Made by a program: the position numbers and the translations under genes. A DNA stretch of 32,403 nucleotides, taken from the NCBI GenBank assembly GCA_022616725.1, contig JAKEEH010000353.1, forward strand, positions 1-32,403, in the 5' to 3' direction. This stretch comes from Limisphaerales bacterium. Lineage in GTDB: Bacteria > Verrucomicrobiota > Verrucomicrobiia > Limisphaerales > JAKEEH01. Position 1 is the first letter of the stretch. Every line of letters starts with the position of its first letter. Positions 1 to 23,903 of the stretch are shown here, in pieces. Below the pieces are notes generated by a model that saw only the letters and a program-made list of their open reading frames with translations, had not been told where the DNA came from and did no database searches.

Positions 1-3000
1 GAGATTTACGGCACGACCATTGCCAACCTGACTGGAGCGGGCAAGTTCCCGGATCAGCCGGACCAAAGCCTCTATCAGCACATCGCGGATTGGCGGCAGC
101 CGCAGACCGGCAATCCGACGCGAACCCAGGATGAGCCGTGGAACCAGTACGGAGTGCGGATGTCAGGCTACTTCATACCGCGCAGGGACGGCTCGCACCG
201 GTTCTATTTCACGCATGATGACGAAGCCCAGTTCAGGATGAGCCCTGATGACAACCCGGCGAATGCCGCGATATTGGTGACGCCAACGGGCGTGCGCAAC
301 ATCCCCTACGCGGACTTTGCACCGCAATTCGTCGATGTGGCCGGGTTGGTGGCAGGGCAGCCCTACTACTTTGAAGCCCTGGTGAAAGAAGGGGGCGGCG
401 GCGATTATTTGAGCGTCGGCGTTCGCGAGCCGGACAATGGGCTGATTACGAACTCGATCACGGCAATTCAGCCGCAATTCCTCGCCGCGCTGGCAGACCC
501 CAATGCGGCGCCCGCCTTGAGCATCACGAATCCGCCCGCCAACGTGACAGTCGAGGTCGGCCACAGCGCGACCTTCAGCGTCGGCGTTTCGTTCAGTGGC
601 AACAACCTGCCCTATTACCAATGGAAGGTTGACGGCGTAGCGGTCGCAGGAGCCAACGGACCAACCTTTGTCACTCCGCCAGCGGTCGCCGGACCTGACC
701 AGGCAGTGACGGTCGATGTGCATCTGCCGGGTGTGTCAGTCACGAGCGCGGCGGCAACGTTGCACGTTGTGCCGGACACCACTGCGCCCCAGATCAATGC
801 TTCCGTGGTTCTCTCGGGCACGACGCTGTCCCTGGGCTTCACCGAGCCGGTGGTGGTGGACTTTCCGGCGTCGCTGACGGACCCGGCCCTTTATCGCGTC
901 AACGACATGGCCGGCATCGTGCAGAGTGTTGAAATCGTCACTCCATCGGCGCTAAAGCTGAATCTTAACGGCTCAGTATCCGGGACGGTGACGGTGCGCG
1001 CTTCGACCGCGCTGGAAGACGCGGCCGGCAACGCGATCGCGGAGAGCGGAGACCTCACTGGATTCTCAGTCGCGTTCACGGCAACGGCCGTAACCACCTG
1101 GACGGACATCGCCAACAGTGCCGGGCCGCCCACGCCAGCGGGCACGGTATTCACGGTGAACAATCGCGATTTCGTGGTCACGGCGGGTGGTGCCGATGTC
1201 TGGTCCGGCGGTGACCAGTTCACTTATATTTACGAGCAGCGAACCGGCGATTTTGACGTGAAGGTGCGAGTGGACCGCCTCGACTTAGCGGTTGGCGCAG
1301 GGAACCTCTGGTCGAAAGCCGGCCTCAACATCCGCGAAACGCTTGATGGCACCGGTCCCAACGGCAGCCGGATGGTCTGGACTTACCCGACACCCACCAA
1401 TGGCGCCGGTCAATTCGAGGCAGCGATTCGACCCGAACCGGGCCGTGATGTGATCGATGTGAACGGCGGCAGCTATGGCCGGCACGGGCGGGGCGACGGC
1501 TCAGCCTGGGTGCGCGTCAAACGCGTCGGCAAATCGTTCACTTATTATGACTCTTATGATGGGCGAAACTGGAACCGCATTGGTTTGCCGCGCGTGGCCG
1601 ACGCCAACCCGGAAAACTCCATCGGTGGAATTGGGCTGGCCATCGCCGACGCCGGTGGTTTCCCGGAAACACTGTATGTTGGGTTGGGCGTTGTCTCGCA
1701 TAATCAAAATATTATCACGACGGCCACCTTGTTTGATTATGGCGATTGGTCTTATGAAGGGGCGACGGTAGCCGTCACAAGAGATCCGGCCGATACGGTG
1801 GGTTACGTTGGCAGCCGGGTGAAATTCAGCGTCGCCGGCGTTGTCGATCGCGCGCCGCAGCATGAGCTGATCGTGCAATGGCAGCGCAACGGCGTGGATA
1901 TCCCGGGCGCGGTCAGCACCTATGTGGACAACTACACTTACACGACGCCAGTTCTCACTCTGGACGACAGCGGCGCGCAATATCGGGCCAAATTGATCGT
2001 CTCCGGCGCCACCCCGGTGTTCAGTTCCGCCGCCACGTTGACGATGCTCGCGACCGCTCCCGACGGATTAGAGCCCGAAGTCGCAATGACCCCCGCGCCG
2101 CCGCAGCTCTTGATGGCGAGGAGAGATCCAACCGATCCGAACCAAATAATCCTCACCTTCGATGAACTACTCCGCCCGAGTTCGGTCAACAACGGCACTT
2201 ACACCATCGACCAGGGCGTCGTCGTCACGCAGGCACGGCGTCTGGGCATCCGAAAGGTCCTGTTGACAGCCACCGGGCTTGCGCCGCTGAGCAATTGCGT
2301 GACTTACGCGATCTCGGTCAGCGGGGTACAGGACGGCAGCGGCAACGAGATGATGCCGACCGATACGACCATTCCCGCCGACGCAGCGGCGCGCGTGCTG
2401 TTCATCACCGGCAACGCCTCGGGAATGAACCGCTCGGACCGGATTGTAATCGACCGACTTGACTCGTTCGGTTATGAAGTGACGCCGATCAGCGCGACGG
2501 CAGCAAACCGGCGCGGCGCGTCTGCCGCAAGTGGTTATTCGCTCATATACCTCTCCTCCCCGGGCGGAACAGCGGTCGGCAGCACATTCCGCGGGCTTGC
2601 GATTCCGACGATTATCTGCCGGCGCGATTTGGCCGACGATTACGGCTTCGTGCCGGCCAATGCTCAGACCGGGACCATCGGCGCACAAACACAGATCAAC
2701 ATCGTCGCTGAGGGCCACCCACTCGCTGCCGGCTTCCCCAACGGCAATATTGCGCTCGTGGACACAGCGCAAGTGGACAACCGCACGTTCAACTGGTACA
2801 GCAACCCCGCGCCGAATGCGGTCGTCATCGCGCGCGAAGTGGTTACCACCAACAACTTCCGGCCCGTGATCCTGGCATTTGAAGCGGGGGCGACGACCCT
2901 GAATGTCCCGGCGGCCTCCCGCCGCGTTGCGACGTATCTCGAAGATAACGTGCCGCAATGGTTCAACAACAACGCTCGGGCGCTCTTCGACGCGATGATC

Positions 3001-4200
3001 AACTGGGTCTCCATTCCGTCACTCATCCATCCGCCGCAGAACCAGACGCTTGCTTATGGCAGTTCTGGCGCCCTCTGCGCCGTGGCCGGCAGCCTGACCA
3101 ACCCGTCCTATCAGTGGTACAAGGATGGGATGCTGATCATGGGCGCGACCGGCGCGCGGCTCGTTTTCAACAATGTTGTGGATGCTGATGCGGGCAACTA
3201 CACGGTCGTCATCAGCAACGCCTCGGGGTCAGTCACCAGTTCGGTCGCAACGGTCACCGTGCCGCTGCCGGAATTGGATATCGCGCGGACCGGCGACGAC
3301 ATCGTGCTGTCGTGGACAGGCGGCGGCACACTCCAGGAAGCCAAAGACATTCGCGGCCCGTGGCGCAATGCCGCGAACCAGGCCAATCCGCAGAACATCA
3401 ATCAGCCAACCTTCGCCGTGTTTATGAATGGCGCTCAGGAACCGCCACCTACGGGCGGCGGCACCGGCACGGGCAGCGGGATTATTTCGCTGGCGGGCAA
3501 CACATTGACCATCAAAATCTCGTTCTCTGGCCTGTCCGGTAACGTGAACAATTGCCATATCCATGGCGTGGGCGGGCGCGGGACCAACGCGGGGGTTTTG
3601 TATGGGCTGAATGCCTTTACAACCCAGGGCGGCACTTCCGGAACGATCGATGGATCGGTGACGCTCACCAATAAGACCGGCCTGACGATCGAGGAGCAAC
3701 TCGATCAACTGCGCGGGGGACTGTGGTACGTCAATATCCATACCACGACTTTCGGCGGCGGCGAGATTCGCGGGCAGATTGATCCGGTGCTCTTCTGCGT
3801 TTCGGCCGATCCGCAACAGGACGGCGGCGAAGGACGGACCGGTTTGGGCCTGGGGGTCGTCGCGCTTAACGATAACGTTGTCACGATCAATGTCTCGTTC
3901 TCGGGGCTGTCCGGAAACGTCAATAACTGTCACATCCACGGGCCGGCGCCGCGCGGGACGGACGCGGGCGTCCTCTATGGTCTGAATGCCATCACAACCC
4001 AGGGCGCAATGTCAGGTACGGTCAATGGGTCGGTCACGCTGGTGGATGGCACTGGCGGAATCAGCCTGGCGGACCAACTCAGTCAATTGGAAGACGGCCT
4101 GTGGTACATCAACATCCACACGACGACTTTCGGCGGTGGTGAAATCCGCGGCCAGATCGAGAAGCCGCTGAAACAGTTCTTCCGCGTCGTGCGCCCATAA
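1..4200 (+). CDS. Giant secreted modular protein, 5' partial (PA14-like, Ig-like, LamG-like, GATase-like, two CHRD domains)
   Basis: The frame is open from base 1, so the track's start at 154 is only an internal Met and the true start lies upstream. Modules in order (nt): a PA14/GLEYA-like sandwich with 'YGVRMSGYF…FYFTHDDEAQF' (1-400); an Ig-like domain with the 'YYQWKVDG' Trp (515-770); an SbsA/Big_5-like domain (780-1080); a concanavalin-like sandwich (1095-1740); a second Ig-like domain (1760-2050); another Big_5-like segment (2090-2390); a Rossmann-like glutamine-amidotransferase/ThuA-type segment beginning 'ARVLFITGNASG' (2390-3010); an Ig_3 domain with 'YQWYKDG' (3030-3260); then two CHRD domains. 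The protein ends in 'QFFRVVRP', typical of verrucomicrobial extracellular proteins. It is probably exported, with an adhesive or carbohydrate-binding role; no catalytic residues were recognised. A terminator follows. The modular reading is confident, the biological role is not. Confidence 0.85.
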   Translation, partial: EIYGTTIANLTGAGKFPDQPDQSLYQHIADWRQPQTGNPTRTQDEPWNQYGVRMSGYFIPRRDGSHRFYFTHDDEAQFRMSPDDNPANAAILVTPTGVRNIPYADFAPQFVDVAGLVAGQPYYFEALVKEGGGGDYLSVGVREPDNGLITNSITAIQPQFLAALADPNAAPALSITNPPANVTVEVGHSATFSVGVSFSGNNLPYYQWKVDGVAVAGANGPTFVTPPAVAGPDQAVTVDVHLPGVSVTSAAATLHVVPDTTAPQINASVVLSGTTLSLGFTEPVVVDFPASLTDPALYRVNDMAGIVQSVEIVTPSALKLNLNGSVSGTVTVRASTALEDAAGNAIAESGDLTGFSVAFTATAVTTWTDIANSAGPPTPAGTVFTVNNRDFVVTAGGADVWSGGDQFTYIYEQRTGDFDVKVRVDRLDLAVGAGNLWSKAGLNIRETLDGTGPNGSRMVWTYPTPTNGAGQFEAAIRPEPGRDVIDVNGGSYGRHGRGDGSAWVRVKRVGKSFTYYDSYDGRNWNRIGLPRVADANPENSIGGIGLAIADAGGFPETLYVGLGVVSHNQNIITTATLFDYGDWSYEGATVAVTRDPADTVGYVGSRVKFSVAGVVDRAPQHELIVQWQRNGVDIPGAVSTYVDNYTYTTPVLTLDDSGAQYRAKLIVSGATPVFSSAATLTMLATAPDGLEPEVAMTPAPPQLLMARRDPTDPNQIILTFDELLRPSSVNNGTYTIDQGVVVTQARRLGIRKVLLTATGLAPLSNCVTYAISVSGVQDGSGNEMMPTDTTIPADAAARVLFITGNASGMNRSDRIVIDRLDSFGYEVTPISATAANRRGASAASGYSLIYLSSPGGTAVGSTFRGLAIPTIICRRDLADDYGFVPANAQTGTIGAQTQINIVAEGHPLAAGFPNGNIALVDTAQVDNRTFNWYSNPAPNAVVIAREVVTTNNFRPVILAFEAGATTLNVPAASRRVATYLEDNVPQWFNNNARALFDAMINWVSIPSLIHPPQNQTLAYGSSGALCAVAGSLTNPSYQWYKDGMLIMGATGARLVFNNVVDADAGNYTVVISNASGSVTSSVATVTVPLPELDIARTGDDIVLSWTGGGTLQEAKDIRGPWRNAANQANPQNINQPTFAVFMNGAQEPPPTGGGTGTGSGIISLAGNTLTIKISFSGLSGNVNNCHIHGVGGRGTNAGVLYGLNAFTTQGGTSGTIDGSVTLTNKTGLTIEEQLDQLRGGLWYVNIHTTTFGGGEIRGQIDPVLFCVSADPQQDGGEGRTGLGLGVVALNDNVVTINVSFSGLSGNVNNCHIHGPAPRGTDAGVLYGLNAITTQGAMSGTVNGSVTLVDGTGGISLADQLSQLEDGLWYINIHTTTFGGGEIRGQIEKPLKQFFRVVRP
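3412..4161 (+). repeat. Tandem duplication of a CHRD-domain unit (about 375-nt period)
   Basis: Two consecutive copies lie inside the large CDS. Both carry the protein motifs 'NVNNCHIHG', 'RGT(N/D)AGVLYGLNA' and 'HTTTFGGGEIRGQI'. The 'aacgt' preceding the CHIHG codons occurs at 3541 and 3916, so the period is 375 nt (125 residues). The nucleotide copies have diverged mostly at third positions, which indicates an established duplication under protein-level constraint rather than a recent one. CHRD domains are known from chordin and from many bacterial secreted proteins; their bacterial ligand is not defined. Confidence 0.85.
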
Positions 4201-4220: not shown

Positions 4221-4253
4221 AAAGAGACCGGGACTGTGTCCCGGTCTCTTTTT
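4221..4253. terminator. Bidirectional intrinsic terminator
   Basis: A perfect 14-bp stem 'aaagagaccgggac' pairs with 'gtcccggtctcttt' around a 3-nt loop. It is flanked by T-rich sequence on the plus strand and by a TTTGTTT tail when read on the minus strand. It sits 20 bases after the stop of the plus-strand giant CDS and beyond the end of the convergent minus-strand glycosyltransferase, so it can end both transcripts. Confidence 0.9.
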
Positions 4254-4368: not shown

Positions 4369-5676
4369 TCACTGAAGTGAGGTGATGATGAAACCGGGTG
4401 TCACATGCGCCTGGACGGTCTCCAGGATCTTTTCGGTCATGCCCTGGACATCGAAGTCGCGCACCACCGCTTCGCGGCCAGCCAGGCCCATGCGCCGGGC
4501 CTTCTCCGGATTGGCGAGAAGCGATTCGACCGCGTCCGCGAGCGACTCAACGCTTCCAGGCTCGCAGAGCAACCCGCCGCCCGTGGCTGTGATCAGCTCA
4601 GGAAAGGCGGCGACGGACGGCTGGACCACTGGGACCGCGGACGCAAGCGCCTCGATGACGTAGAGCCCGAAAGCCTCTCCGTAGAGCGCCGGCACGGACA
4701 TGACAGTAAGGGAGCGATAAAACTGCTGTTTCGCGAGAAGGTCCAGGTTCGGATGGAACTCGAAAGATTCTGGGAATTCCGCCAGCTTTTGTTTCAGTTC
4801 TTCGACGAAGGGTTCATCGGCGGGTCCGAGGCTTCCGCCAATTTTCAAGCGCAGGCCTTTGATTCGGTCCCGGCGTTTCAAGACAAGGAACGCGTCCACA
4901 AGGGTGTCGATCCCCTTCTCGCGGCACATTCGGGCGAAATACCCAAGCACGGGTGGATCGGGCGGCGCGGGTGCGGGCGCGAAACCGTCCAGCTTGATGC
5001 CGTTGTACACGACCCGCACGCGCTCGGACGGCAGTTGCAGCCGTTTGGCCATGAGTTGGCCAAAGTAATGGCTGGGCGCGATAAAAAGCGCGATGTCACC
5101 GCAGCGTTTCACCAGGATGTCCCAGGCCTGGCCGCGAAACGGCTCCGGAAGGCCATCCAGAAACGAATCTTCGCCCTGGAGATGGCAAAACACCGGCGCG
5201 TCCAATTCGTGTTGCAAACGCCGGGCCAGACCGGCCAGCAGGACGTTCGAGAGAAAGATTGCGTCCGGTTTTGGCTGCGCCCTGAGCCATGCGATCAGCT
5301 TGTCGAGTTCAGCGATCTGATTGCCCTCTTCACCGCGCAACATCGACACGGTCAATTCGCCGAGATCCGTCGCGCGAGTTTTCGCGGCGCGCCCGGCGGC
5401 CCAGCGGAGCAGGCGCGGGTGCGAGAGGGCATTGCGCAGCCAACCCGGCGCGCGGCGGAAAAGCGTCGATTGCTGATCGAGATAAACGTTGATGCCGCTG
5501 AAGAAAATCGGCGTCCCGCTGCTTTGATCCGTATCGTCGAGGTTCAGCGGCAGATAGAGCGGGACCATCAGCGCGCTGTGCCCAAGCTTGCGCAACCTTT
5601 CGACGAGGGCATTGTCGCGGAAGCAGTTCCCACAATACATTCCGCCTGCGCCGGGAGTAATTTGGACGAGGTTCAT
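4369..5676 (-). CDS. Glycosyltransferase family 4 (GT-B fold)
   Basis: This 435-residue protein has the GT-B layout. The N-terminal acceptor half starts 'MNLVQITPGAGGMYCGNCFRDN', with a Gly-rich first loop. The linker and donor half carry 'VRVVYNGIKLDGF' and 'PVLGYFARMCREKGIDTLVDA', and the EX7E-type nucleotide-sugar motif 'EAFGLYVIEALAS' lies at about residues 334-346. It is expected to be cytoplasmic and to transfer a sugar from a nucleotide donor; the acceptor is unknown. It is the last gene of the minus-strand operon, 39 bases after the halogenase-like gene, so it may glycosylate that pathway's product. Its stop codon sits in a small inverted repeat (4365-4384). The start ATG at 5676 fits the conserved N-terminus; no strong Shine-Dalgarno is visible. 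Confidence 0.88.
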   Translation of the reverse strand: MNLVQITPGAGGMYCGNCFRDNALVERLRKLGHSALMVPLYLPLNLDDTDQSSGTPIFFSGINVYLDQQSTLFRRAPGWLRNALSHPRLLRWAAGRAAKTRATDLGELTVSMLRGEEGNQIAELDKLIAWLRAQPKPDAIFLSNVLLAGLARRLQHELDAPVFCHLQGEDSFLDGLPEPFRGQAWDILVKRCGDIALFIAPSHYFGQLMAKRLQLPSERVRVVYNGIKLDGFAPAPAPPDPPVLGYFARMCREKGIDTLVDAFLVLKRRDRIKGLRLKIGGSLGPADEPFVEELKQKLAEFPESFEFHPNLDLLAKQQFYRSLTVMSVPALYGEAFGLYVIEALASAVPVVQPSVAAFPELITATGGGLLCEPGSVESLADAVESLLANPEKARRMGLAGREAVVRDFDVQGMTEKILETVQAHVTPGFIITSLQ

Positions 5677-5715
5677 GTTTCCGTCAGCCCGTCAAACATA
5701 GCCGTGCGCCCTTAG

Positions 5716-6999
5716 CTACCGCCCCATCGCGATGCTTTCCCGCGTCGCCGCCGATTCCAGCGGCCTTCCGTACGGCAACGCCTCGGGCACTTCGGCGAAC
5801 TCCGCGATGGCGCGAAACAGATGAGTAAAATCCTTGTCCACGTCGCCCGAAAGACAATCCGTGATGTCGCCCGCCAGGTCCGGGTATTTGTCAGTCAGCT
5901 CCCGAAAACTGAAGTTCGGATCGTAGAACGCATAGACCAGTTTGCGCATGTTCTCAATGCCGTGCCGCAGCGCGCGTCCGTATTCGGCGAAGCGGCCCGG
6001 CGAGAAATCATGCGCTTCCAGCGCCTCGTGTACCGCGTCCGCGGCCATGACCCCGCTCTTGAGCGCGAGCATCAGGCCGGAGGAAAACACCGGATCGAGA
6101 AAGCAGAGCGCGTCGCCGACGAGCAGCAAGCCTTCGCACCCGCAGTATTTCGAATGAAATGAAAACTCGTTGGTGATGTAATACGGGCCGATTTGCCAGC
6201 CAGGGGCAAGATGTTCCTTAATCCAAAGGTTCTGGTCGATCTCGCGCCGAAACATCTCGCCGGGGTCCCTGATGCCGTCTCGCGTCAAGTATTTCCCTTC
6301 TGCCACCACGCCGACGCTCGTCATGTCGTTGTGCTGCGGGATGTACCAAAACCATCCCTTGTCGGGAACAAACGCAACCGTCGTCGCGCCGGCATCGATG
6401 CCTTCGTCCCGCATCGCTCCCTTGTAATAGGTCCACACGGCCACTTTGTTCAGCTTCGGATCGCGGACGCGCCAGTTATTGCGCACGGCCGCAAAGGAAT
6501 CTTTGCCCGTGCAATCGAGCGTTATTGGCGCCAGGTATTCGACCATTCGGCCATCGGCATGTTGCGCCCGCACGCCCGTTACGCGTTCGCTGTCCTTGAG
6601 CAGATTGGTGACCGTGACCTGCTCCAGCACCGTCGCGCCCCGTCCTTTTGCGTTATCAACCAGCATTTGGTCGAACTCGGAACGCAACACTTGCCAGGTC
6701 TGCGCCACGTCGGGGCTGTAGCGGGTGAAAAAATAAAACGGTTGCGAGGCTTTGCCGGACGCCGCGACAAATTGCACGCTATATTTTTTAACAAACGCGG
6801 ATTGCCGCATCTTATCGATCAGTCCCAGTCGCTGGAGCGGCTGATAGGTAAACGGGAGCAGCGATTCCCCGATGTGGTAGCGCGGAAACTTTTCGCGTTC
6901 GAGGACAAGGACGCGATGGCCTCGTTCGGCCAGCAAAGCCGCGGCAGCCGTGCCTGCTGGTCCGGCGCCGATGATGATGGTATCCCAACGGGTGCTCAC
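5716..6999 (-). CDS. FAD-dependent oxidoreductase of the flavin halogenase family
   Basis: This 427-residue protein opens with the FAD-binding 'GAGPAG' loop (11-16) and the family signature 'PRYHIGESLLP' (39-49). 'FVKKY' at 69-73 places a Lys where flavin halogenases carry their active-site Lys. 'GWFWYIP' at 215-221 fits the halogenase WxWxIP motif. A third FAD motif 'LLVGDALCFLDPVFSSG' follows. In the known family, a reduced flavin supplied by a partner makes HOX for chlorination or bromination of aromatics; related members are plain oxidoreductases. No dedicated flavin reductase is adjacent. The start is GTG, overlapping the upstream stop as GTGA (translational coupling). The upstream chorismate-lyase-like gene suggests a phenolic acid substrate, which is inference. 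Family placement is good; halogenating activity is unproven. Confidence 0.82.
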   Translation of the reverse strand: MSTRWDTIIIGAGPAGTAAAALLAERGHRVLVLEREKFPRYHIGESLLPFTYQPLQRLGLIDKMRQSAFVKKYSVQFVAASGKASQPFYFFTRYSPDVAQTWQVLRSEFDQMLVDNAKGRGATVLEQVTVTNLLKDSERVTGVRAQHADGRMVEYLAPITLDCTGKDSFAAVRNNWRVRDPKLNKVAVWTYYKGAMRDEGIDAGATTVAFVPDKGWFWYIPQHNDMTSVGVVAEGKYLTRDGIRDPGEMFRREIDQNLWIKEHLAPGWQIGPYYITNEFSFHSKYCGCEGLLLVGDALCFLDPVFSSGLMLALKSGVMAADAVHEALEAHDFSPGRFAEYGRALRHGIENMRKLVYAFYDPNFSFRELTDKYPDLAGDITDCLSGDVDKDFTHLFRAIAEFAEVPEALPYGRPLESAATRESIAMGR

Positions 7000-7568
7000 T
7001 TCTTTGCTGCGGGCGGGAGAATTTCGACAATTTCAGCCAGGGTACGTCCTTCGGCGTCAAACAAAATGTTGCGTCGCCCAAAAAGCGCTTGCGGTTCGCG
7101 CAAATTGAGCAGGCGATTGATCGTCGCGTCTGACGTGATGCGCAAGTAGGCCTGGGGACGGCTCTGGTAGGCGATGGCACAATCCTTGAGAACACGGCCC
7201 AGCGGGTGGCGCTCCTGCAAGATCCTTTGCCGCGCCTCGGCAGGGAACATGTCGAGATTGATCTTGATCGCCCCAAACTCGACCGGCTTGTCCGTGCCAT
7301 CCAGTTGCAGGACGACCTCGCGAAAATAGCTTCCGTTTCGCCGCTCGCGCCCGATGACGCGCAGGTGCACTGGCGCGCCGTGGAAATTCTCCAGCGTCGA
7401 GGTCATGTCGTTCTGGTGCACGAGCAGCCCATAGTAGGGTTCGGGCACCTCAGGCGCGGCGATTCGCTTGATCGGCGGCAATCCCAGTCCGGAGCGGGCG
7501 TAAAACTCGTCCAGCGGGTGGGCGACGGGGCAATCGACCATCGAACATTCTACAGATGCCTCACGCAT
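6996..7568 (-). CDS. Chorismate-lyase-like (UbiC/DUF98-type) protein
   Basis: I call 190 residues from the ATG at 7568 rather than the track's 237-residue version from 7709, whose Cys/Arg-rich extension lies inside the upstream radical SAM gene. ATG 7568 overlaps that gene's TGA, fitting coupled translation; Met at 7541 is an alternative. The core 'LLVHQNDMTSTLENFHG', 'YFREVVLQL', 'PVEFGAIKINLD' and 'HPLGRVL' resembles chorismate pyruvate-lyases, which release pyruvate from chorismate to leave 4-hydroxybenzoate. The Arg in 'PLGRVL' and the Glu in 'PVEFG' are plausible active-site residues by analogy with UbiC. It ends in a GTGA overlap with the halogenase-like gene. The fold is fairly likely; a non-catalytic or different-substrate role is possible. 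Confidence 0.65.
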   Translation of the reverse strand: MREASVECSMVDCPVAHPLDEFYARSGLGLPPIKRIAAPEVPEPYYGLLVHQNDMTSTLENFHGAPVHLRVIGRERRNGSYFREVVLQLDGTDKPVEFGAIKINLDMFPAEARQRILQERHPLGRVLKDCAIAYQSRPQAYLRITSDATINRLLNLREPQALFGRRNILFDAEGRTLAEIVEILPPAAKK

Positions 7569-8907
7569 AACGCGCACTCCGGTGTTCCGGCAAAAAAAAC
7601 TCCTGCAACAGCCGATCAACCTGCAGCAATCCCTCGCGGTTGATCCGCACCGTATCACCCTCCACCGACAGCAATCCCCAATCGCGCAATCTCTGGAGTG
7701 GCACGGCAAAGCGGTCGCACAAATCGACGCCGAACTTGTTCTGGAAATACGCCCGGCTTACCTGACCGAGCTTCAATTGGAGAATGAACTCGCGAATGAG
7801 CCGTTCATCGCTCGTTGGAGTGAGAGCGCGATAAATCGGCAGTGCGCCCGCCTCGACCCTGGCCACGTAGGGATCGAAATCGTGATGATTCTGGTAATGC
7901 GTTCCGCCGATGCTGCCGAAGCTCGCCACGCCAATCGAAACCAGGTCGGCGCCCGCCCAAAGCCGGTCGCGATAGAGGAATTTGGTGCGGGAGCGATCCT
8001 TGACGGCGGTATAAGCGCTGGCGATTTCGTAACCAGCCTTCTCCAATTCGTGGAACGCGTAATCCACCCACGCCCGCTTCGTTTCCCAATCAGCCACCGG
8101 GGCGACGAGCCTCCCCTCCGCCTTCATCTGCTTATAGATCGTCGTATTATACGGGATTTCCATCTCGTAAATCGTCACGCTGTCCGGAGCCATGGCGATG
8201 GTTTTGCGCACGCACTCTCTCCAGTTCGCTTCGGTTTCCTCCACCATGCCCGCAATCAGGTCGATGTTGATCTGCGGGAAACCTGCGTGTCGCGCGTATT
8301 CGTAAGCGCGCGCGATCTCCTTGCTATGGTGCGCCCGGCCATTGATTTCCAGAATATGATCGTCAAAGTTTTCAACGCCGAGGCTTAGCCGCGTTACGCC
8401 AAGGTCGCGGATGGCCTGCAATTTATGGTCGGTGAGCGTGCCCGGCTCCGCCTCGAACGTGACCTCCTCGACGGTGTCCCATGGCAAGAGCCGCTGCATG
8501 GAGCCGAAGAGATGCCGCAACTGGTCAACTGATAAATACGATGGAGTCCCGCCGCCGAAATAAATAAAGCCTGGCTTGCGCCTGCCGATAAAGGGTCGCG
8601 AGGCGTACATCGCCAATTCCGCCACCAGCGCGTCAACGTAGCGCCGGATGGCCGCCGCGTCCTTGTCTGTGTACACCTTAAAATAACAGAAGTGACAGCG
8701 TTTGCGGCAGAACGGAATGTGCGCGTAAATCCCCAGCGGCGTGCCGGGCGCCGGGGCGCGTTCGAGCGCTGCCTCGACCTGTCCGACGTATTCCGGCTTC
8801 CAGAATGAAAAGGGCGGATAATTCGACACGAAGTAGTTGCCGACCGTCGTTTGCGTTTGCAGCGGCGGTTTCGACTGGGCCGGAACTGTGATAGCCGGGG
8901 CGCTCAT
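7561..8907 (-). CDS. HemN/HemW-like radical SAM enzyme
   Basis: This 448-residue protein has the CX3CX2C cluster motif 'CRKRCHFC' (C67, C71, C74) in an 'AHIPFC' context typical of the HemN/HemW group. It also has the SAM-contact 'GGGTP' (118-122), 'FEAEPGTLTD', 'LSLGVENFDDHIL' and a HemN-type C-terminal wing (last ~90 residues). True coproporphyrinogen dehydrogenases, HemW chaperone-like proteins, heme-degrading ChuW-type enzymes and class C radical SAM methylases all share this architecture. No other heme-pathway gene is nearby. Placement between a propeller gene and chorismate-lyase/halogenase-like genes favours a tailoring role on an aromatic substrate, which is inference. It overlaps the upstream gene by ATGA and the downstream gene by 8 bases. 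Confidence 0.85.
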   Translation of the reverse strand: MSAPAITVPAQSKPPLQTQTTVGNYFVSNYPPFSFWKPEYVGQVEAALERAPAPGTPLGIYAHIPFCRKRCHFCYFKVYTDKDAAAIRRYVDALVAELAMYASRPFIGRRKPGFIYFGGGTPSYLSVDQLRHLFGSMQRLLPWDTVEEVTFEAEPGTLTDHKLQAIRDLGVTRLSLGVENFDDHILEINGRAHHSKEIARAYEYARHAGFPQINIDLIAGMVEETEANWRECVRKTIAMAPDSVTIYEMEIPYNTTIYKQMKAEGRLVAPVADWETKRAWVDYAFHELEKAGYEIASAYTAVKDRSRTKFLYRDRLWAGADLVSIGVASFGSIGGTHYQNHHDFDPYVARVEAGALPIYRALTPTSDERLIREFILQLKLGQVSRAYFQNKFGVDLCDRFAVPLQRLRDWGLLSVEGDTVRINREGLLQVDRLLQEFFLPEHRSARYA

Positions 8908-10022
8908 TTCTTTCCCTCCCCGCTGAAAGCATAGACATTGCCGTCGTCCGCGCCCACAACGATCGTGCCATCGACCACGGCAGGCGAACTGCCAATGGGC
9001 GGACCGATCTCGTAGGACCAGATCTCTTTTCCAGTCTTCAGACTGATCATGTACAGCCGCCCGTCATCCGACCCGACTACTACTTTGTCCTCGCAAACGG
9101 CGGGCGAACTGTCCACCTTGCCGCGCGTGGGAAATTTCCACACGGCCTTGCCATCGGCGCGATTGAGGCAATGCACCGTTTTGTCGCGGCCGCCGAACAC
9201 AATCCGATCCTCTGTCACGGCCGGCGACGAGAAGTAAGGGAAATTCTTGTCCCGATAGGTCCACAGATTCGTGCCGCGTTCAAGGTCAATGCAAAGAAAC
9301 TCATTTTCATAATGGCCCACATAGGCGCGGTTTCCGGAGATCGCCACCGAGGCCGCAATGTAGGCGCCGGCTTCGACCTCCTTCACCTTTGCGCCACTGG
9401 TCAGCGCAATCACGTGCAGCAACGCGTCGCACCCCCCGAAAACGGTCTTTCCATCGAACACCGCTGGCGAGCCGTTGATGTAACTCCCGGTTTCATACAC
9501 CCAATTGCTCTTGCCGGTCCCGGCATCGAGGCAGTGCAATTTGTAATCATACCCTCCAATGATGATTCGTGTACCCGCAGAGTCCTTGAAGTAGTTCGGC
9601 GAACCCAGAATCTTATCGCCCGTCTCATATTTCCAAAGCGGCTTTCCGTCCAGCCCCAGGGCATGGAGCGACCCGTCAGAAGAACCCACAAAAACCCGAT
9701 TCTCCAGCACCAAAGGTGAGGACTCGACAGCGCCGCCGGTTTTGAAGGCCCAAATCCTTTGTCCCGACTTCAAGTCGAGCGCATACACATGCTCATCGTT
9801 CGAGCCGACGAACACCTTGCCATCGACAATCGCCGCTGACGATTTGACCGGTCCGCCGGTCTTGAAACTCCAGGCTGCTTTTAGCCTGGCCGGGAGTTCG
9901 ACCTGGGAGACGCCCGTGAGGCTTTGGTTGCCGCGGAACATGGGCCACGCGCTGGCCGCGCCGAGAGGCGGCAGCACGAGGCAGAATATAGCGGCAGCAA
10001 TGATCGATTTACGCGTAACCAT
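8904..10022 (-). CDS. Exported PQQ-like beta-propeller protein (BamB-like, eight repeats)
   Basis: This 372-residue protein starts with a signal peptide ('MVTRKSIIAAAIFCLVLPP', likely cleaved after 'GAASA'). The mature start 'WPMFRGNQSLTG' is characteristic of bacterial PQQ-repeat proteins. Eight repeats of about 40 residues follow, each with an 'xxSSPAV…VFVGSxDxxLYALDxxTGxxxWxY' pattern; the SS-containing strands (PVKSS, AVESS, KILGS, YINGS, YIAAS, PYFSS, KVDSS, PIGSS) mark the blades. Eight blades match BamB-like and quinoprotein propellers. Metal- and PQQ-binding dehydrogenase residues were not recognised, so a scaffold or binding role is as likely as catalysis. It is the first gene of the operon, and its stop overlaps the radical SAM start. 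It should act in the periplasm while its neighbours are cytoplasmic. Confidence 0.85.
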   Translation of the reverse strand: MVTRKSIIAAAIFCLVLPPLGAASAWPMFRGNQSLTGVSQVELPARLKAAWSFKTGGPVKSSAAIVDGKVFVGSNDEHVYALDLKSGQRIWAFKTGGAVESSPLVLENRVFVGSSDGSLHALGLDGKPLWKYETGDKILGSPNYFKDSAGTRIIIGGYDYKLHCLDAGTGKSNWVYETGSYINGSPAVFDGKTVFGGCDALLHVIALTSGAKVKEVEAGAYIAASVAISGNRAYVGHYENEFLCIDLERGTNLWTYRDKNFPYFSSPAVTEDRIVFGGRDKTVHCLNRADGKAVWKFPTRGKVDSSPAVCEDKVVVGSDDGRLYMISLKTGKEIWSYEIGPPIGSSPAVVDGTIVVGADDGNVYAFSGEGKK

Positions 10023-10142: not shown

Positions 10143-11078
10143 TCAAGCGCCGCCACTGCGTCCTTTGCGACGTCGCCCGCAATGTTGCAGGAACTGCTTC
10201 GGCGTCATCCCGGACACTCGCTTAAAGTGCACCGCGAAATGGCTTTGGTCATAAAAACCAACTTCCAGCGCCACATCGGTGAGAGAATGCTCGCCTCGCA
10301 CCAGCATCTGCCGCGCGCGTTCGATTCGCCTCTTTAACAGATATTGGTAGGGCGAAAGGCCGGTGTGCTCTTTAAACACGCGGGAGAAGTGAAACGGGCT
10401 GAGCTTCACCGATGAGGCGATCTCATTCAAACTCAAGTCCTGCGCGGAATTCTCGTCGATGAACTCTTTCGCCCTTCGGATCACGCGTGGCGCCGGTCGC
10501 CCGCCTCGCAATGCTGACAGCTTGCGATTGGAATGCTTGCTCGCTAAATGGACAGCCAGGCTCGTCACCAGGGAGTCACTATACAAACGCCCGGATTTTC
10601 CCGAGTGTTCCACTTCCTTCTTCAGCGCCAGACATACGCCTTCGATAAACCGGTCCTCAATGCCGTGGAGCACCATCAACTCGAATCGATCGTCAAGCAG
10701 TTCCCCGCACGCGCTGGCCATGAAGGTCGGGTCTATCGAAAGTACTAATACGTCGAGCGGATCGTCGGAGCGGCTGTGCGTCGAGCCTTGCGCCGGCAGG
10801 ATGGTGACATGTCCGGGCCTTAGCCGCTGCGGAACAAACCGGCCCTCGGATTTGCGTTCCACCGTGGCCCGATTCAACTGCACAAAAACCATGTTGTTGA
10901 GCCAGATCACGTCACAAGCGTCGAGCGAAGGCAATTGCTGGACCTCCAATAAATAACCACGCCACTCCAGGGGAGCGCTCGTCAAGACAGGCGCACGCCC
11001 GATGGGCCGCAATCGCCCGAGCCCGCGGTCAAACACCATTTCTCGTTTGAAGGATTTCATGCCAGCCGCTCGATACAC
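10143..11078 (-). CDS. AraC/XylS-family transcriptional regulator
   Basis: This 311-residue protein has a cupin-like N-terminal sensor half ('LRPGHVTILPAQGSTHS') and a C-terminal double helix-turn-helix of about 100 residues from 'RVIRRAKEFIDE'. The first helix pair is in 'LSLNEIASSVKLSPFHFSRVFKEHTG' and the second in 'HSLTDVALEVGFYDQSHFAVHFKRVSG', with the family end motif 'TPKQFLQH'. The start used is GTG at 11078, with a GGAG-like site just upstream; ATG at 11060 is an alternative. It lies 120 bases upstream of the five-gene operon on the same strand, so it is a natural candidate activator of that operon. The inducer is unknown; sugars or small aromatics are usual for the family. The 214 bases upstream of it (11079-11292) hold no gene I can support. 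Confidence 0.9.
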   Translation of the reverse strand: MYRAAGMKSFKREMVFDRGLGRLRPIGRAPVLTSAPLEWRGYLLEVQQLPSLDACDVIWLNNMVFVQLNRATVERKSEGRFVPQRLRPGHVTILPAQGSTHSRSDDPLDVLVLSIDPTFMASACGELLDDRFELMVLHGIEDRFIEGVCLALKKEVEHSGKSGRLYSDSLVTSLAVHLASKHSNRKLSALRGGRPAPRVIRRAKEFIDENSAQDLSLNEIASSVKLSPFHFSRVFKEHTGLSPYQYLLKRRIERARQMLVRGEHSLTDVALEVGFYDQSHFAVHFKRVSGMTPKQFLQHCGRRRKGRSGGA

Positions 11079-11292: not shown

Positions 11293-13563
11293 TCACTCGC
11301 CTGCTGCTTCTTCTGCTCTCCTGGCAAACGTGAATCGCTCAACCTGCAGTCGTACCGCATTGGTTGAGTCTTCAACGATGTGATACCACTGGCCGGCGGC
11401 CAGATTCGTAAATGTTTGGGTTCGACCGGAGACGGGCCAAACCACATTCACATCCGCGGTGGCGGCACTCCCCAGGCCAATGTGCTGGCGCAGCGGGTTG
11501 GCGCCAAAGCTGCCGCCGGAGTTGACGATTTTGTGGATCTTCCGCTTGCCCTCCGGCGTCTTAACCGTGCATTCGATTCGGGCGCCGATGGCGGAGCGAT
11601 TTGATTTCACGCCCTGGAGCCGCAATCCGATCCAGCGATTACCCATGCCCGGGTTCTCAAACAGAGCGTTGCGAAAGGCATCGCCCGTATAGGCCCCTCC
11701 GAGAGATTCGTAAATATCCTGGTCACCATCGTTATCAAAATCCGCGAACGAGATGGCATGACCCTTCTGCAGGTGCCCGAACCCTCCGGCCGTCGTCACA
11801 TCCTGAAATCTGCGCCCGGCGTCATTGCGGAACATTCGATTCGGAATTATTGTCGCGAGGTCCGGATCTCCCGTCCCGGCATAGAAATCAAGGTAACCGT
11901 CGTTATCGAGATCCCCAAAGTTGCATCCCATTGTGTGAATGATCTTGAAGAGACCGGCTTGTTTGGTGACGTCCGAAAAAGTACCGTTGCGATTATTGTG
12001 GAAGAGCCGGGAGCGCTCGCCCGGGTGCGGCAGACCCAGGTAATCCGCGGCAACGTCACTGACATTCCGAATCCAATAGCCGCTGACGAACAGATCCTGC
12101 CAGCCGTCATTGTCATAATCAAAGAACCACGTAGAGAAACTACCGATCGGCTCGCCAACTCCCGCTCGCGCTGTCACGTCCCGGAACCGCCAGGTACTGG
12201 CTTTCTCGCCTGGCACGGGCCCTTCATTGCGCAAAAGAATGTTCGTGCTTCCGCGCACCGATAAGTAGAGGTCCATTCGACCGTCATTGTCATAATCCGC
12301 GCTCGCGACGGCTTTCACGAACGCGTTTACCGCCACGCCGGCTTCCGCCGCGCAATCCGTGAACGTGCCGTCTTTGTTGTTCCGATACAGTTCGCTCGGA
12401 TGCACCTCTTCACCGAGCGATTCGTTGCCGACGAATAGGTCGATCCATCCGTCGTTGTTATAATCCAGCCACGCGGCGGCCTGCGTCGGATGAAAACTGA
12501 GCATGCCCGCCTCTTCGGTCACGTCCTCGAATGTGCCGTCGCCGTTGTTGCGAATGAGCGAGTTTGGGATTCGTCCAGTGGCCCCAAGCCACGCGCCCCT
12601 CAAAACAAACACATCCACGAAGCCGTCGTTGTTGTAATCCGCGGGGACCATGTTCAATCCGCCAACCAGACCTGTCAGGCCGGCCTCCTTTGTTCGCTCC
12701 GTGAAAGTTCCATTGCCGTTGTTGATAAAGAAGCGCAGTTGCTCGCGGCTGCCCCAGCGCGAAACCATCAGGTCGATGTCGTTATCATTGTCGAAATCAT
12801 CGGCGACGGTCCCGCCGGCCAGGCCCTCCATATCCAGCCCGAGGTCGCCGGCGATATTGACGAAGCGCGGCAAAGGAAACTCAGAATCAAACACGCGCGG
12901 GGGAATTAGCCATTGCGGCGGAACCTTCGCCGGATATTCCCCCGCCGCCATATAAGCGATATTGATCAGCCAGCGCGCAGCGAGATCCTGGGGTTCACGC
13001 GTCAGAAGCTCGGTGAATTTCCCGATCGCCGCTCGCGCCCCTTTTGGGTCCCGGTGAACGGCGGCGGGACTCAATGGCAACAGGCATGACTCCGGGCCGT
13101 GGAACACGACGCAATTATCCAGTTCCCCCTGCCGCAGATGGCACATGCCCATGAACCGATCCATTTCGGCATAAAATTTTGCCGTCTGTCCGCCCGGAGT
13201 GCGGTTGGCAAGCTCAACACATTTTTTGAATTCCGCCAGCCCTTCCTCGGGTTCGCCGGCATTGAGCAACTCGAGACCCAGCGTCGCCCGCAGATAAATG
13301 GTGTCAATAATATTTGTCACAAACCTCAACTGTGCGCGCAACAGCGGCACGCGCCGGTCGCTCAAATAGAAGCACTTCGTCGGATCGGTTCGTCGATCGA
13401 TCTCGTCCAGTCGCGCCGCCATTTTCGCGGTCCCGATCCCGACTTTATCTGTCGATTTCTCCGCTCCGAAACAAATCGTGCTCGTCAGAGCACAAAGCAT
13501 CATGGAGGCGCTACTGGCCAAGGCGCGCCAAAGCTGCCGTCGTCCAAACTGTGATTGCACCAT
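11293..13563 (-). CDS. Exported FG-GAP/VCBS repeat protein with C-terminal ASPIC/UnbV domain (CRTAC1-like)
   Basis: This 756-residue protein has a signal peptide ('RRQLWRALASSASMMLCALTS', ending near 'CFGA'). A helical TPR-like segment follows ('LRATLGLELLNAGEPEEGLAEFKKC'), then a seven- or eight-fold run of FG-GAP/VCBS units with Ca-binding DxDxDG cores ('DFDNDNDIDLM', 'DYNNDGFVDVF', 'DYNNDGWIDLF', 'DYDNDGRMDLY', 'DYDNDGWQDLF', 'DLDNDGYLDFY', 'DFDNDGDQDIY'). The C-terminal ASPIC/UnbV domain contains 'GNRWIGLRLQG', 'NSGGSFGANPLRQHIGLG' and 'VVWPVSGRTQTFTNL'. The family is abundant in Planctomycetes, Verrucomicrobia and Acidobacteria; its function is unresolved, with binding or carbohydrate interaction assumed. 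It stands alone. ATG 13563 has no clear Shine-Dalgarno. Confidence 0.9.
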   Translation of the reverse strand: MVQSQFGRRQLWRALASSASMMLCALTSTICFGAEKSTDKVGIGTAKMAARLDEIDRRTDPTKCFYLSDRRVPLLRAQLRFVTNIIDTIYLRATLGLELLNAGEPEEGLAEFKKCVELANRTPGGQTAKFYAEMDRFMGMCHLRQGELDNCVVFHGPESCLLPLSPAAVHRDPKGARAAIGKFTELLTREPQDLAARWLINIAYMAAGEYPAKVPPQWLIPPRVFDSEFPLPRFVNIAGDLGLDMEGLAGGTVADDFDNDNDIDLMVSRWGSREQLRFFINNGNGTFTERTKEAGLTGLVGGLNMVPADYNNDGFVDVFVLRGAWLGATGRIPNSLIRNNGDGTFEDVTEEAGMLSFHPTQAAAWLDYNNDGWIDLFVGNESLGEEVHPSELYRNNKDGTFTDCAAEAGVAVNAFVKAVASADYDNDGRMDLYLSVRGSTNILLRNEGPVPGEKASTWRFRDVTARAGVGEPIGSFSTWFFDYDNDGWQDLFVSGYWIRNVSDVAADYLGLPHPGERSRLFHNNRNGTFSDVTKQAGLFKIIHTMGCNFGDLDNDGYLDFYAGTGDPDLATIIPNRMFRNDAGRRFQDVTTAGGFGHLQKGHAISFADFDNDGDQDIYESLGGAYTGDAFRNALFENPGMGNRWIGLRLQGVKSNRSAIGARIECTVKTPEGKRKIHKIVNSGGSFGANPLRQHIGLGSAATADVNVVWPVSGRTQTFTNLAAGQWYHIVEDSTNAVRLQVERFTFARRAEEAAGE

Positions 13564-14371: not shown

Positions 14372-15811
14372 ATGGTTAAAATTCCCGTTCTCCGCTGCGG
14401 CCAGCCTTACGAAAGCCTCGAATCCGATAAGGTCGTCCATTTTGTCACCGGCGAAACCCTCGCCCAGGTCAGCCAGGCCAACCCAGGCTTGCTCGCCAAA
14501 GACATGAAACGAGCGCAACGCGCGCGCGACGTCTTGCGCGAGATCCCCTGCCACGACCTTGTGCAGATCATGAAGAAGGCCGCCGACCTCTACCGCGACG
14601 CGACCCTACCGATGGGTGACGGCGAGCAATCGCCGGATGACTTCGCCCGCCAGCAATCCGCCTCCACCGGCCTCCCGGAGCACATGTGCAAAGCCAACAT
14701 GGGCAAAAACCATTTCGTGCTCTTGAACATGGACCGCATTCTCGATTGCCTCACGCGCGGCCTCGACCTGGACATCCTCACGCGCGGCTACGGCATGGAA
14801 TCCCGCGGCGTCATTGTCAGCTACCAGGCGCAGTCGCCTGTGCTCGGCCTTGTGCTCCCATCCAATTCGCCGGGCGTGCACACCCTCTGGATGCCGGTCA
14901 TTCCCATGCAGGTTGGCCTTGTCCTCAAACCAGGGCCGCAAGAGCCATGGACGCCCTATCGCATGGCCGCCGCGTTTTTCCAGGCCGGCGTTCCGCGCGA
15001 GTCCATCAGCATTTATCCCGGCGGCGGCGAGATGGGCGCCGAAGTCGTGAACCGTTGCCGCCGCGTCAAGATTTTCGGCAGCACCGAAACCGTCCAACGC
15101 TATCACGGCAATCCCTGCGTCCAGGTCCATGGTCCGGGCTTCAGCAAAATCCTCCTCGGCGACGACGTCGTGGACCAATGGGAAAAATACATCAACCTGA
15201 TGGTGGACAGCGTGTACCTGAACAGCGGGCGCGGCTGCATCAATTGCTCCGGCGTTTGGGCCTCACGCCACACCAAAGAAATTGCCCAGGCACTGGCCGA
15301 ACGCCTCGGACCCATCGACGCCAAACCGCCCCAGGATCCCACGGCGGGCCTGGCCGCCTTCACCGTACCCGGCCAGGCGCAGGCCATCCACGCCTCAATC
15401 CAGGACAAAATCAAAGAAGACGGCGTTACCGATATGACCGCCAAATTCGGCTCGCGCCTCGTCGAAAAGGAACGCGCCGCCTACCTGCGCCCCTGGGTGA
15501 TCCACGCCGACGCCCCGGAACGCAAGATTGCTCAAACCGAATACATGTTCCCCTACGTCACCGTCATCGAATGCCCGCAGGCTGAAATGATTGACAAGAT
15601 CGGCTCCACCCTCGTCTGCAGCGCCATCACCAGTGACAAAACCTGGGAACAACAACTCATGGAAGCGACGAACATCGACCGCCTCAACATCGGCCCGATC
15701 CCCACCATTCAACTCAACTGGCTGCAGCCCCACGAAGGCAACATCGTGGACTTCCTCTTCCGCGCCCGCGCCTTCCAGGTCCCACCAGACCGCATCCCCG
15801 CCCCTCGATAA
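14372..15811 (+). CDS. Aldehyde dehydrogenase superfamily protein with atypical active site
   Basis: This 479-residue protein has ALDH superfamily landmarks: 'VLPSNSPGVHTLW' (substrate/cofactor loop), 'LKPGPQEPWTPYRMAAAF' (the KP.E.TP.. equivalent), 'KIFGSTETV' (cofactor loop) and 'LNSGRGCINCSG' with the presumed catalytic Cys289. The usual general-base Glu in LELGGK is replaced: the aligned stretch is 'VQVHGPG' with Gln251. Loss of that Glu is typical of CoA-acylating or acyl-CoA-reducing members, so it may form or use an acyl-thioester. It starts 78 bases after the toxin frame and is followed by a long non-coding stretch, so it looks monocistronic. The N-terminus (~110 residues) is less typical. 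Substrate unknown. Confidence 0.8.
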   Translation: MVKIPVLRCGQPYESLESDKVVHFVTGETLAQVSQANPGLLAKDMKRAQRARDVLREIPCHDLVQIMKKAADLYRDATLPMGDGEQSPDDFARQQSASTGLPEHMCKANMGKNHFVLLNMDRILDCLTRGLDLDILTRGYGMESRGVIVSYQAQSPVLGLVLPSNSPGVHTLWMPVIPMQVGLVLKPGPQEPWTPYRMAAAFFQAGVPRESISIYPGGGEMGAEVVNRCRRVKIFGSTETVQRYHGNPCVQVHGPGFSKILLGDDVVDQWEKYINLMVDSVYLNSGRGCINCSGVWASRHTKEIAQALAERLGPIDAKPPQDPTAGLAAFTVPGQAQAIHASIQDKIKEDGVTDMTAKFGSRLVEKERAAYLRPWVIHADAPERKIAQTEYMFPYVTVIECPQAEMIDKIGSTLVCSAITSDKTWEQQLMEATNIDRLNIGPIPTIQLNWLQPHEGNIVDFLFRARAFQVPPDRIPAPR

Positions 15812-16090: not shown

Positions 16091-16394
16091 GTAGTTCTTG
16101 CGTGTTTTCGGGGAACGGAGGCTGGAGAGTTGAAGAGTGATGGGGTTGAAGAGTTGAAGCGTTACATCGTTAAACCGCAAACACGGATTAACCTTGTTTC
16201 TCGTGGCGTTTTCAAATAGGGTTAACGTGCCTAAAAGTAAGCGTACATCCCTGGATTACGGAAGACCTGTGTCCTGGGCTGCTGCGCACGAGAATGGGCC
16301 TAAATGGGTAGCGCGAGCATTGGTTTTGCCGAAACCCCGGCAAACGACCAGGTGCGGTAGCTTGTACCGAAGCACCGATTCACCATTCAATGTC

Positions 16395-16478
16395 TTTAAC
16401 GATTTAACGAATCACGCTTTAACGAGTTCCACCGGTTCAACGATTCAATTCAACGCTTTTAACGATTTAACGAACCAC
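16395..16478. repeat. TTTAACGA-type repeat array abutting the carbamoyltransferase start
   Basis: Two 21-bp copies, 'tttaacgatttaacga' followed by atcac or accac, start at 16395 and 16458 and differ at one base. Further degenerate units (tttaacgag, ttcaacgat, ttcaacgct) fill the 63-bp period. The second copy ends at the base before ATG 16479. This kind of low-complexity 'ttYaacgat' repeat is intergenic in nature. Translated, it gives the duplicated 'FNDLTNH' peptide that wrongly extends the downstream ORF in the track. Confidence 0.8.
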
Positions 16479-18275: not shown

Positions 18276-19648
18276 ACCTGGAGACCAATGGCGTTGACAC
18301 CCTGCCATCGCGGGTTGACTCCTTCGCCGCGGGCCTTTCCCGGCATTGGCCCCGCGCCAAACAATGGAGCCTCCGTTTGGCCGAGTTCGGACTTGTTCAA
18401 GGACTGGTTCAGCTCTTGACGGCCGTGGCCGGCCTGCTGATCGTGCGCACACTGGCTAAACAGGACTACGCGCTCTACGCCATTGCCAATTCGATGCAAA
18501 CCATGGGTAGCCTGTTGGCCGATCTCGGCATTGGTATTGGCCTGCGGTCGATTGGTGGACGCGTGTGGAGCGATCCGGAACGGTTCGGGCAGTTGCTGAG
18601 CACTGCATTTCATCTTCGTCGTCGATTCGCAATCTTTTCGTTGATGGTGACGGTTCCGTTCTCTGGATGGATGTTGTGGCGAAACGGTGCGAGCGCGCCG
18701 CTGCTCATTGGCCTCTGCCTCTGCGTCATTGCTGGCGTTTATCCACTGCTGGGTTCCGCAGTGTTCACGAGTTGCCTACAACTGCACGGGCAATACCGCC
18801 GGATACAATCTCTTGATTTCGGCAACGCTTTGTTGCGCCTTGCGGTGATCGCCGGATTGGCGATGAGACATCTCAACTCATTGCTTGCATGCGGAGTTGG
18901 TGTAATGAGCAATTGGATCCAGTTTGTATTCTCACGACGATGGGCGCGGAAGCATGCAAGTATAGATAGTATCCAGAACCAGCAAGACCGGGATGAGCTC
19001 GTCCGCCTCTCAGTTAAGACTTTGCCAAACGCAATTTTTTTCTGCTTCCAAAGCCAAGTGACCATTTTAATTTTTACTCTTTTTGGCAGCCCGAATGGCA
19101 TCGCCGACATCACCGCTCTTGGCCGTATTAGCGCCCTGTTTGCTGTTTTTTCCGCGATATTTACCAATATATTGGCGCCCCAATTTACTTGCTGTCAGGA
19201 TTCGACCCGACTGTCGCGCCTATACACAGCTCTTGTCGCTGGCACGTCCGCTATGCTCGGATTATTTGTGCTGTTAACGGGACTGTTTCCAAAGCCGTTA
19301 TTGTGGTTGTTGGGGAACAAATACGCTTTACTGGAAAAAGAATTGACCTGGGTAGTAAGCGCCGGATGCTTAGCGCAAATTGCCGCGGCAATGTGGCATC
19401 TCAACAATTGTCGAGGCTGGATCACCTTGACTTCGAAGTTGTACATTCCCTGGATCATTCTGGCACAGGCTATAGCGGTGCCGTTGCTCGACTTTACGAT
19501 TTTCTTCCACGTTATCATCTTCAGCATCGTTATTGCCGCTGCTCCGATACCTTTATCTGCGGCTGACGCCGTAATCGGTTTGCGTGGTAGATCGGCAAGC
19601 ACTTCTTCCCCTACCCAATGCACGTTGCCCCCTTGGCCCAACAAATAA
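18272..19648 (+). CDS. Oligosaccharide flippase (Wzx-like, MOP superfamily)
   Basis: This 458-residue protein is strongly hydrophobic with about 12 predicted membrane segments. After a ~35-residue cytoplasmic tail comes 'LVQGLVQLLTAVAGLLIVRTLAKQDYALYAI', the usual first helices and loop of polysaccharide-biosynthesis flippases. Later segments include 'LVAGTSAMLGLFVLLTGLF' and the 'LWLLGNKYALL' loop common in Wzx-type proteins. It should flip lipid-linked oligosaccharide across the inner membrane. It overlaps the carbamoyltransferase stop by 4 bases and the next gene by 31. Base composition becomes noticeably more A+T-rich within this gene. Confidence 0.85.
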   Translation: MNLETNGVDTLPSRVDSFAAGLSRHWPRAKQWSLRLAEFGLVQGLVQLLTAVAGLLIVRTLAKQDYALYAIANSMQTMGSLLADLGIGIGLRSIGGRVWSDPERFGQLLSTAFHLRRRFAIFSLMVTVPFSGWMLWRNGASAPLLIGLCLCVIAGVYPLLGSAVFTSCLQLHGQYRRIQSLDFGNALLRLAVIAGLAMRHLNSLLACGVGVMSNWIQFVFSRRWARKHASIDSIQNQQDRDELVRLSVKTLPNAIFFCFQSQVTILIFTLFGSPNGIADITALGRISALFAVFSAIFTNILAPQFTCCQDSTRLSRLYTALVAGTSAMLGLFVLLTGLFPKPLLWLLGNKYALLEKELTWVVSAGCLAQIAAAMWHLNNCRGWITLTSKLYIPWIILAQAIAVPLLDFTIFFHVIIFSIVIAAAPIPLSAADAVIGLRGRSASTSSPTQCTLPPWPNK

Positions 19649-20361: not shown

Positions 20362-20382
20362 CAGTCCGAGAGCCGACGAGCC

Positions 20383-22955: not shown

Positions 22956-23057
22956 TCGCCATCTGATTTGAAGCACGGTATCTGCTTTGTTGAACACGGC
23001 CGCTAACCACGTGCGGACACGTTCGCGATCCGGAATGCAAGAAGAGTTCGCAGTAAT

Positions 23058-23852: not shown

Positions 23853-23903
23853 AGATCCGATAAGAACACCACTTTAGGTGTAGTATCCGTTGCCGCTTGT
23901 GCT

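Follow-up and report, generated by a model that had tools for sequence, protein, structure and literature searches.

Chorismate lyases and flavin halogenases are already known to be paired in bmp-type clusters, in which the lyase feeds 4-hydroxybenzoate to the halogenase and a P450 completes the set that makes tetrabromo-biphenyldiol (PMC10579414). These clusters are the nearest described kind to the locus reported here, an operon of five minus-strand genes on contig JAKEEH010000353.1 of a Limisphaerales bacterium (phylum Verrucomicrobiota; assembly GCA_022616725.1), analyzed as one stretch of 32,403 nucleotides and hereafter called the window. The operon runs from a beta-propeller through a radical S-adenosylmethionine (SAM) enzyme, a chorismate-lyase-fold protein, and a predicted flavin-dependent halogenase to a glycosyltransferase of family GT4 (genes 1 to 5; Table 1). 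As in the bmp-type clusters, a lyase would feed a halogenase acting on 4-hydroxybenzoate; unlike them, the halogenase is CmlS/CndH-like, and a HemN-like radical SAM enzyme, carboxylate activation and reduction, a GT4 enzyme, and an exporter join the set. Inspection of the operons in the compared loci revealed no P450; a genome-wide search for one was not made. We propose, with about even confidence, that the genes form a dedicated pathway, which starts from chorismate and yields a tailored and glycosylated phenolic for export. The proposal starts from what was established directly, namely gene identities, folds, conserved catalytic residues, gene order, and co-inheritance. As the initial annotation of this DNA had held, no named pathway with this gene combination was found in the literature, within a coverage that mostly excludes subscription papers. 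All parts belong to known families; their combination and their spread through a bacterial order appear undescribed.

The order of the genes recurs in relatives. Counted over 34 non-redundant loci, in which open reading frames (ORFs) were called mechanically and several neighbors were assigned by eye, the sequence is propeller, radical SAM enzyme, lyase, halogenase, and GT4, and thioesterase, EamA-type, and PaaK-type ligase genes often come next. The propeller gene immediately precedes the radical SAM gene in all 23 loci that have a propeller, the radical SAM gene precedes the lyase in 32 of 34, the lyase precedes the halogenase wherever both occur (26/26), and the GT4 gene directly follows the halogenase in each of the 15 loci with both. 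At L022:8313-10103, lyase and halogenase are naturally fused into one protein of 597 amino acids (aa). A 621-aa ORF in L107 was considered as a second such fusion and ruled out, the lyase lying in a different frame. In one genome, a parallel beta-helix-like gene separates the radical SAM gene from the lyase gene (L121:10690-12828).

Co-inheritance extends to genomes in which the genes are unlinked. By sequence search, gene 3 is carried by 12 of 289 genomes of the phylum, and gene 2 (E <= 1e-90), gene 4 (E <= 1e-90), and an EhpF-type adenylating enzyme described below (E <= 1e-60) occur in the identical 12, tallies that depend on these E-value thresholds. The initial annotation had called for a check of co-occurrence, and the families recur together almost perfectly; the order kept over 34 loci and the identical presence and absence of four families in 289 genomes place the grouping far beyond chance. 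The carriers represent six families from more than one class, and the pattern is patchy because families f3 and f5 hold carriers and non-carriers alike; since the carriers are related, they do not amount to 12 independent events. A genome-wide search of 20 carriers recovered the halogenase in 20, the EhpF-like enzyme and an aldehyde dehydrogenase (ALDH) in 19 each, and a PaaK-like ligase in 18, often at unlinked positions. Within the order of the window's own genome, a concatenated query of gene 2, gene 4, and the EhpF-type enzyme has matches in at least 207 of 293 genomes, a figure that undercounts members because only two candidates were scored per genome; the matches listed fall on the gene 2 and gene 4 portions of the query. 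In the phylum of Candidatus Hinthialibacteria, gene 2 is present in 5 of 14 genomes, and plasmid and viral collections yielded no relatives. A gene set found in about 70% of the sampled genomes of one order, and co-inherited identically in other groups, suggests a widespread compound that has seemingly never been looked for.

HemN has its two-SAM site in common with class C radical SAM methylases, yet is not itself a methylase, and gene 2 has to be placed among these enzymes. Orthology to HemW, which the initial annotation had named as a possible objection, was rejected: gene 2 scores 175 bits against the TIGR00539 cut-off of 205.4, and the genome's real HemW lies on contig C262 with 241 bits. 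Its closest solved chains are HemN (1olt) and NocN (9p2u), and its AlphaFold2 (AF2) model, with a predicted local distance difference test (pLDDT) score of 87.6, matches HemN at E 3e-28. The HemN_C domain is matched, and the CxxxCxxC cysteines (C67, C71, C74) are invariant. In NocN, the second SAM (SAM-II) is contacted by Tyr34, Tyr96, Arg153, Asp196, and Ser225 (PMC13266988). The equivalents in gene 2 are Y61, Y116, R173, D216, and T245, a single Ser-to-Thr change, all invariant in 17 sequences; the position of Y116 is His in HemN. Fold, cysteine motif, and two-SAM contacts are shared with the class C methylases, those of NocN and NosN (PMC13266988) and of CoeI, a HemN-like enzyme that methylates the aromatic ring of an anthraquinone (PMC9714029). 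Unlike in these methylases, the gene 2 subfamily (53-79% identical to gene 2, alignment A3) is linked to a gene of chorismate-lyase fold and not to genes for polyketides or ribosomally synthesized and post-translationally modified peptides. On sequence grounds, gene 2 is plausibly a candidate C-methylase of class C.

The closest solved chains to gene 4 are all halogenases (8zop, CndH, CmlS, ChlB4, and PltA). The GxGxxG module for flavin adenine dinucleotide (G11, G13, G16) is invariant, as are K72, which aligns with the catalytic Lys of CmlS, CndH, and 8zop, and W216, W218, I220, and P221 of the WxWxIP motif (WFWxIP, 216-221), a motif proposed to hinder hydroxylation and favor halogenation (PMC10696468, PMC5945002). 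FLDPVxSSG is invariant or nearly so. Among NCBIfam models, CmlS ranks first, followed by flavin monooxygenases and reductases. Gene 4 is accordingly predicted to be a flavin-dependent halogenase of the CmlS/CndH type, sharing fold, Lys, WxWxIP, and FxxPxxSxG with CmlS, CndH, and PltA; unlike them, it has no nonribosomal peptide synthetase or polyketide synthase partner in view, and it is shorter than CmlS. Paralogous pairs of radical SAM (46-48%) and halogenase-like (38-40%) genes occur without a lyase gene at L104:9647-14270, L105:9086-13715, and L106:8322-11018, the first two followed, by eye, by a B12-type radical SAM-like gene; they possibly mark a sister pathway. Apparent single-ORF fusions of radical SAM enzyme and halogenase in G378, G445, and G430 proved to be two adjacent ORFs each, again of paralogues without a lyase gene. 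Near one halogenase orthologue (L089:12107-13612, G188), a ClC-like chloride-channel gene was seen by eye; none was seen at that family's other loci.

We take Met34, Arg76, Gly90, and Glu155 to be the active-site residues of UbiC. In the gene 3 family, M55, R83, G99, P122, G124, and E182 are invariant across 18 sequences, and M55, R83, and G99 align with UbiC Met34, Arg76, and Gly90, as placed on a UbiC sequence whose active-site numbering is self-consistent. The AF2 model of gene 3 (pLDDT 91.9) best matches the DUF98 protein AF1396 (E 9e-8; template modeling (TM) score, TMt, 0.74), then UTRA domains, then UbiC (1fw9; E 4e-5, TM 0.56/0.63). By modeled fold and residue alignment, gene 3 has the chorismate-lyase fold and retains most of the active site, although it fails the curated models. 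It resembles UbiC and DUF98 lyases in these respects and differs from them in falling outside both Pfam models and in an operon context that is not that of ubiquinone. The initial annotation had allowed that gene 3 might prove non-enzymatic; the fold and the main active-site residues speak for a lyase, although no Pfam model covers it.

Carboxylate reduction, in which we presume that EhpF works together with an ALDH, is a further predicted feature of the set. In three loci of relatives, EhpF-like, ALDH, and Fe-alcohol dehydrogenase (Fe-ADH) genes lie upstream, contiguous with the propeller in 3/3; the EhpF-type gene adjoins the operon in some families and is far off in others. In the window's genome, the EhpF-like gene is on contig C408 and a thioesterase is on C440. 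The homologue at L030 aligns with EhpF over its full length (E 3e-48, residues 17-361), and the C408 copy is 66% identical to it. The window itself holds an ALDH (Table 1), the orthologue of the one following the EhpF-like gene in relatives, that is probably a pathway member outside the operon. Downstream, relatives add a YbgC/4HBT-type thioesterase, an EamA-like half transporter, a PaaK-type ligase, and an ATP-binding cassette exporter with an FtsX-type permease. The five genes, which the initial annotation had treated as the set, are therefore incomplete. EhpF is one of the enzymes that turn phenazine-1,6-dicarboxylic acid, made from chorismate, into D-alanylgriseoluteic acid (PMC3175449). 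The present set shares with that route a full-length EhpF-type homologue and, as proposed, a chorismate-derived aromatic; unlike there, no phenazine core genes were seen beside the EhpF-like gene, and conversion of chorismate to 4-hydroxybenzoate is proposed instead. The succession of EhpF-type enzyme, ALDH, and Fe-ADH suggests that an aromatic acid is reduced to an aldehyde or alcohol. At L027/L043, L030/L040/L041, L096, and L103, two or three further PQQ propellers and an SSS- or MFS-type transporter adjoin the EhpF/ALDH module, which in two genomes also has a TonB plug or receptor-like protein beside it, hinting at uptake of something related.

Taken together, lyase, halogenase, two-SAM enzyme, EhpF/ALDH/Fe-ADH module, glycosyltransferase, and exporter suggest as the simplest route that chorismate is converted to 4-hydroxybenzoate, which is halogenated, C-methylated, reduced, and glycosylated before export. 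Gene 3 would release 4-hydroxybenzoate and pyruvate from chorismate; gene 4, as a two-component flavin halogenase, would chlorinate or brominate the electron-rich ring; and gene 2 would add a carbon at an sp2 ring carbon by C-methylation. The EhpF-type enzyme and the window's ALDH, with Fe-ADH in relatives, would reduce the carboxylate, giving an aldehyde or a benzylic alcohol, the PaaK-type ligase and thioesterase could provide a second acyl-CoA step, and the GT4 enzyme would glycosylate a product exported by EamA/FtsX-type transporters, with the propeller, probably periplasmic, acting outside the cytoplasm. The core of the initial annotation, a pathway that builds, modifies, and glycosylates a phenolic, stands up to the checks named there, on co-occurrence, on a gene 2 that is not HemW, and on the fold and residues of gene 3, while we infer every reaction, the order of substrates, the halide, and the product. 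Verrucomicrobiota are abundant bacteria of soil and water, and to our knowledge few small molecules have been described from them. It is possible, though we hold it somewhat short of even, that this is an unrecognized chorismate-derived metabolite or cofactor of about 9-13 co-inherited genes, near-core in an order of Verrucomicrobiota and of patchy occurrence across other classes and in a second phylum, that involves halogenation and two-SAM radical methylation of a simple phenol. The set thereby offers precise targets for study: a family of chorismate-lyase-like proteins that Pfam does not cover, a clade of halogenases, and a HemN-like clade expected to act naturally on a small aromatic.

Genes 2, 3, and 4 diverge in a correlated manner (pairwise r 0.77-0.89, matched in 0 of 2000 permutations each), which counts in favor of the proposal, although common vertical descent by itself can produce such a correlation. 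Several observations weigh against a dedicated phenolic pathway. In several genomes the halogenase lies elsewhere while radical SAM enzyme and lyase stay joined, so the operon is not obligatory, and the window's genome, which is 86% complete, yielded no close orthologue of the PaaK-like or EamA genes. In the single-contig genome G224, stops and a frameshift interrupt the lyase gene (L030:9624-10058) within an otherwise intact 13-gene cluster, through either decay or sequencing error. Gene 3 has no Pfam or NCBIfam match, even leniently, and its 17 homologues have no lenient match to DUF98 or Chor_lyase; its E182 is one position off Glu155 in the alignment to UbiC, matching instead the Glu of AF1396; and its fold is common to non-enzymatic UTRA domains, many of which, as sensors, are among its Foldseek matches. 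It might then be a non-catalytic ligand binder of UTRA/DUF98 fold, with the set modifying or degrading an aromatic from elsewhere, such as an imported plant phenolic acid, an idea to which the transporters, propellers, and TonB-like genes beside the EhpF/ALDH module lend themselves. We consider this unlikely, since gene 3 matches three UbiC active-site residues, has DUF98 rather than UTRA as its top fold match, lacks a DNA-binding domain, and is fused in one genome to a halogenase, as suits a substrate supplier.

An improbable alternative of similar weight is that the pathway serves general physiology, its product being a redox cofactor, quinone-like or otherwise, or a small carrier, with gene 4 a ring monooxygenase and gene 2 a ring C-methylase. 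The spread through the window's own order is above what is usual for specialized metabolites, some genomes have the genes scattered, as is seen in primary metabolism, and flavin monooxygenases and reductases come next after CmlS for gene 4; yet no prenyltransferase was seen in the cluster, the invariant WxWxIP and Lys are features proposed to favor halogenation over hydroxylation, and the presence of GT4 and exporter genes suggests a product that is glycosylated and exported. Very doubtful is an aryl-polyene or phenolic-lipid pathway of the flexirubin or xanthomonadin type with polyketide genes elsewhere in the genome. The relatives' PaaK-like ligase resembles FlxY among others, thioesterase, glycosyltransferase, and exporter genes are at hand, and a LolCD-type exporter would suit a lipid, but inspection of the compared operons revealed no ketosynthase or acyl carrier gene, and the exporter is of the FtsX type.

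The initial annotation's layout of the operon was exact to the base in ORF calls, coordinates, and junctions: genes 1 and 2 overlap by ATGA (8904-8907), genes 2 and 3 by 8 bases (7561-7568), and genes 3 and 4 by GTGA (6996-6999), and 39 bases separate gene 4 from gene 5 (between 5716 and 5676). None of the five genes exceeds the cut-off of any NCBIfam model, and a promoter scan gave nothing. The AraC-type gene does stand upstream as described, but it is not a member of the unit: related loci have no AraC neighbor beside the operon, their sole match being a weak one of 27% in L026, and it was ruled out as the pathway's regulator.

Table 1. Operon genes and associated features of the window.
Feature	Position	Strand	Details
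Gene 1, PQQ-type beta-propeller with signal-like N-terminus	8904..10022	-	372 aa; PF13360 (PQQ_2) 144 bits
Gene 2, HemN-like radical SAM enzyme	7561..8907	-	448 aa; PF04055 (Radical_SAM) and PF06969 (HemN_C)
Gene 3, chorismate-lyase-fold (DUF98/UbiC-like) protein, from model	6996..7568	-	190 aa; ATG at 7568
Gene 4, predicted flavin-dependent halogenase of CmlS/CndH type	5716..6999	-	427 aa; GTG start; PF04820 (Trp_halogenase) 108 bits
Gene 5, GT4 glycosyltransferase	4369..5676	-	435 aa; PF00534/PF13439; last in operon here
AraC-type regulator	10143..11078	-	HTH_18 92 bits; 120 bases upstream of operon, same strand
Palindrome, likely terminator	4221..4251	T run on plus strand	14-pair stem then T run; between operon end and convergent gene
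Aldehyde dehydrogenase	14372..15811	+	Genome's only match to a relative's EhpF-adjacent ALDH; 44%, E 1e-130

In the product of the large convergent gene on the plus strand (154-4200; 1348 aa), a C-terminal stretch is duplicated (NVNNCHIHG...INIHTTTFGGGEIRGQI). An FG-GAP/ASPIC-UnbV protein (11293-13563) is flanked by the AraC gene and the ALDH. The adjacent cluster at 16194-32401, assigned by eye, comprises two NodU-like carbamoyltransferases, a flippase, FkbM-like methyltransferases, several glycosyltransferases, and an asparagine-synthase-like gene cut off by the contig end.

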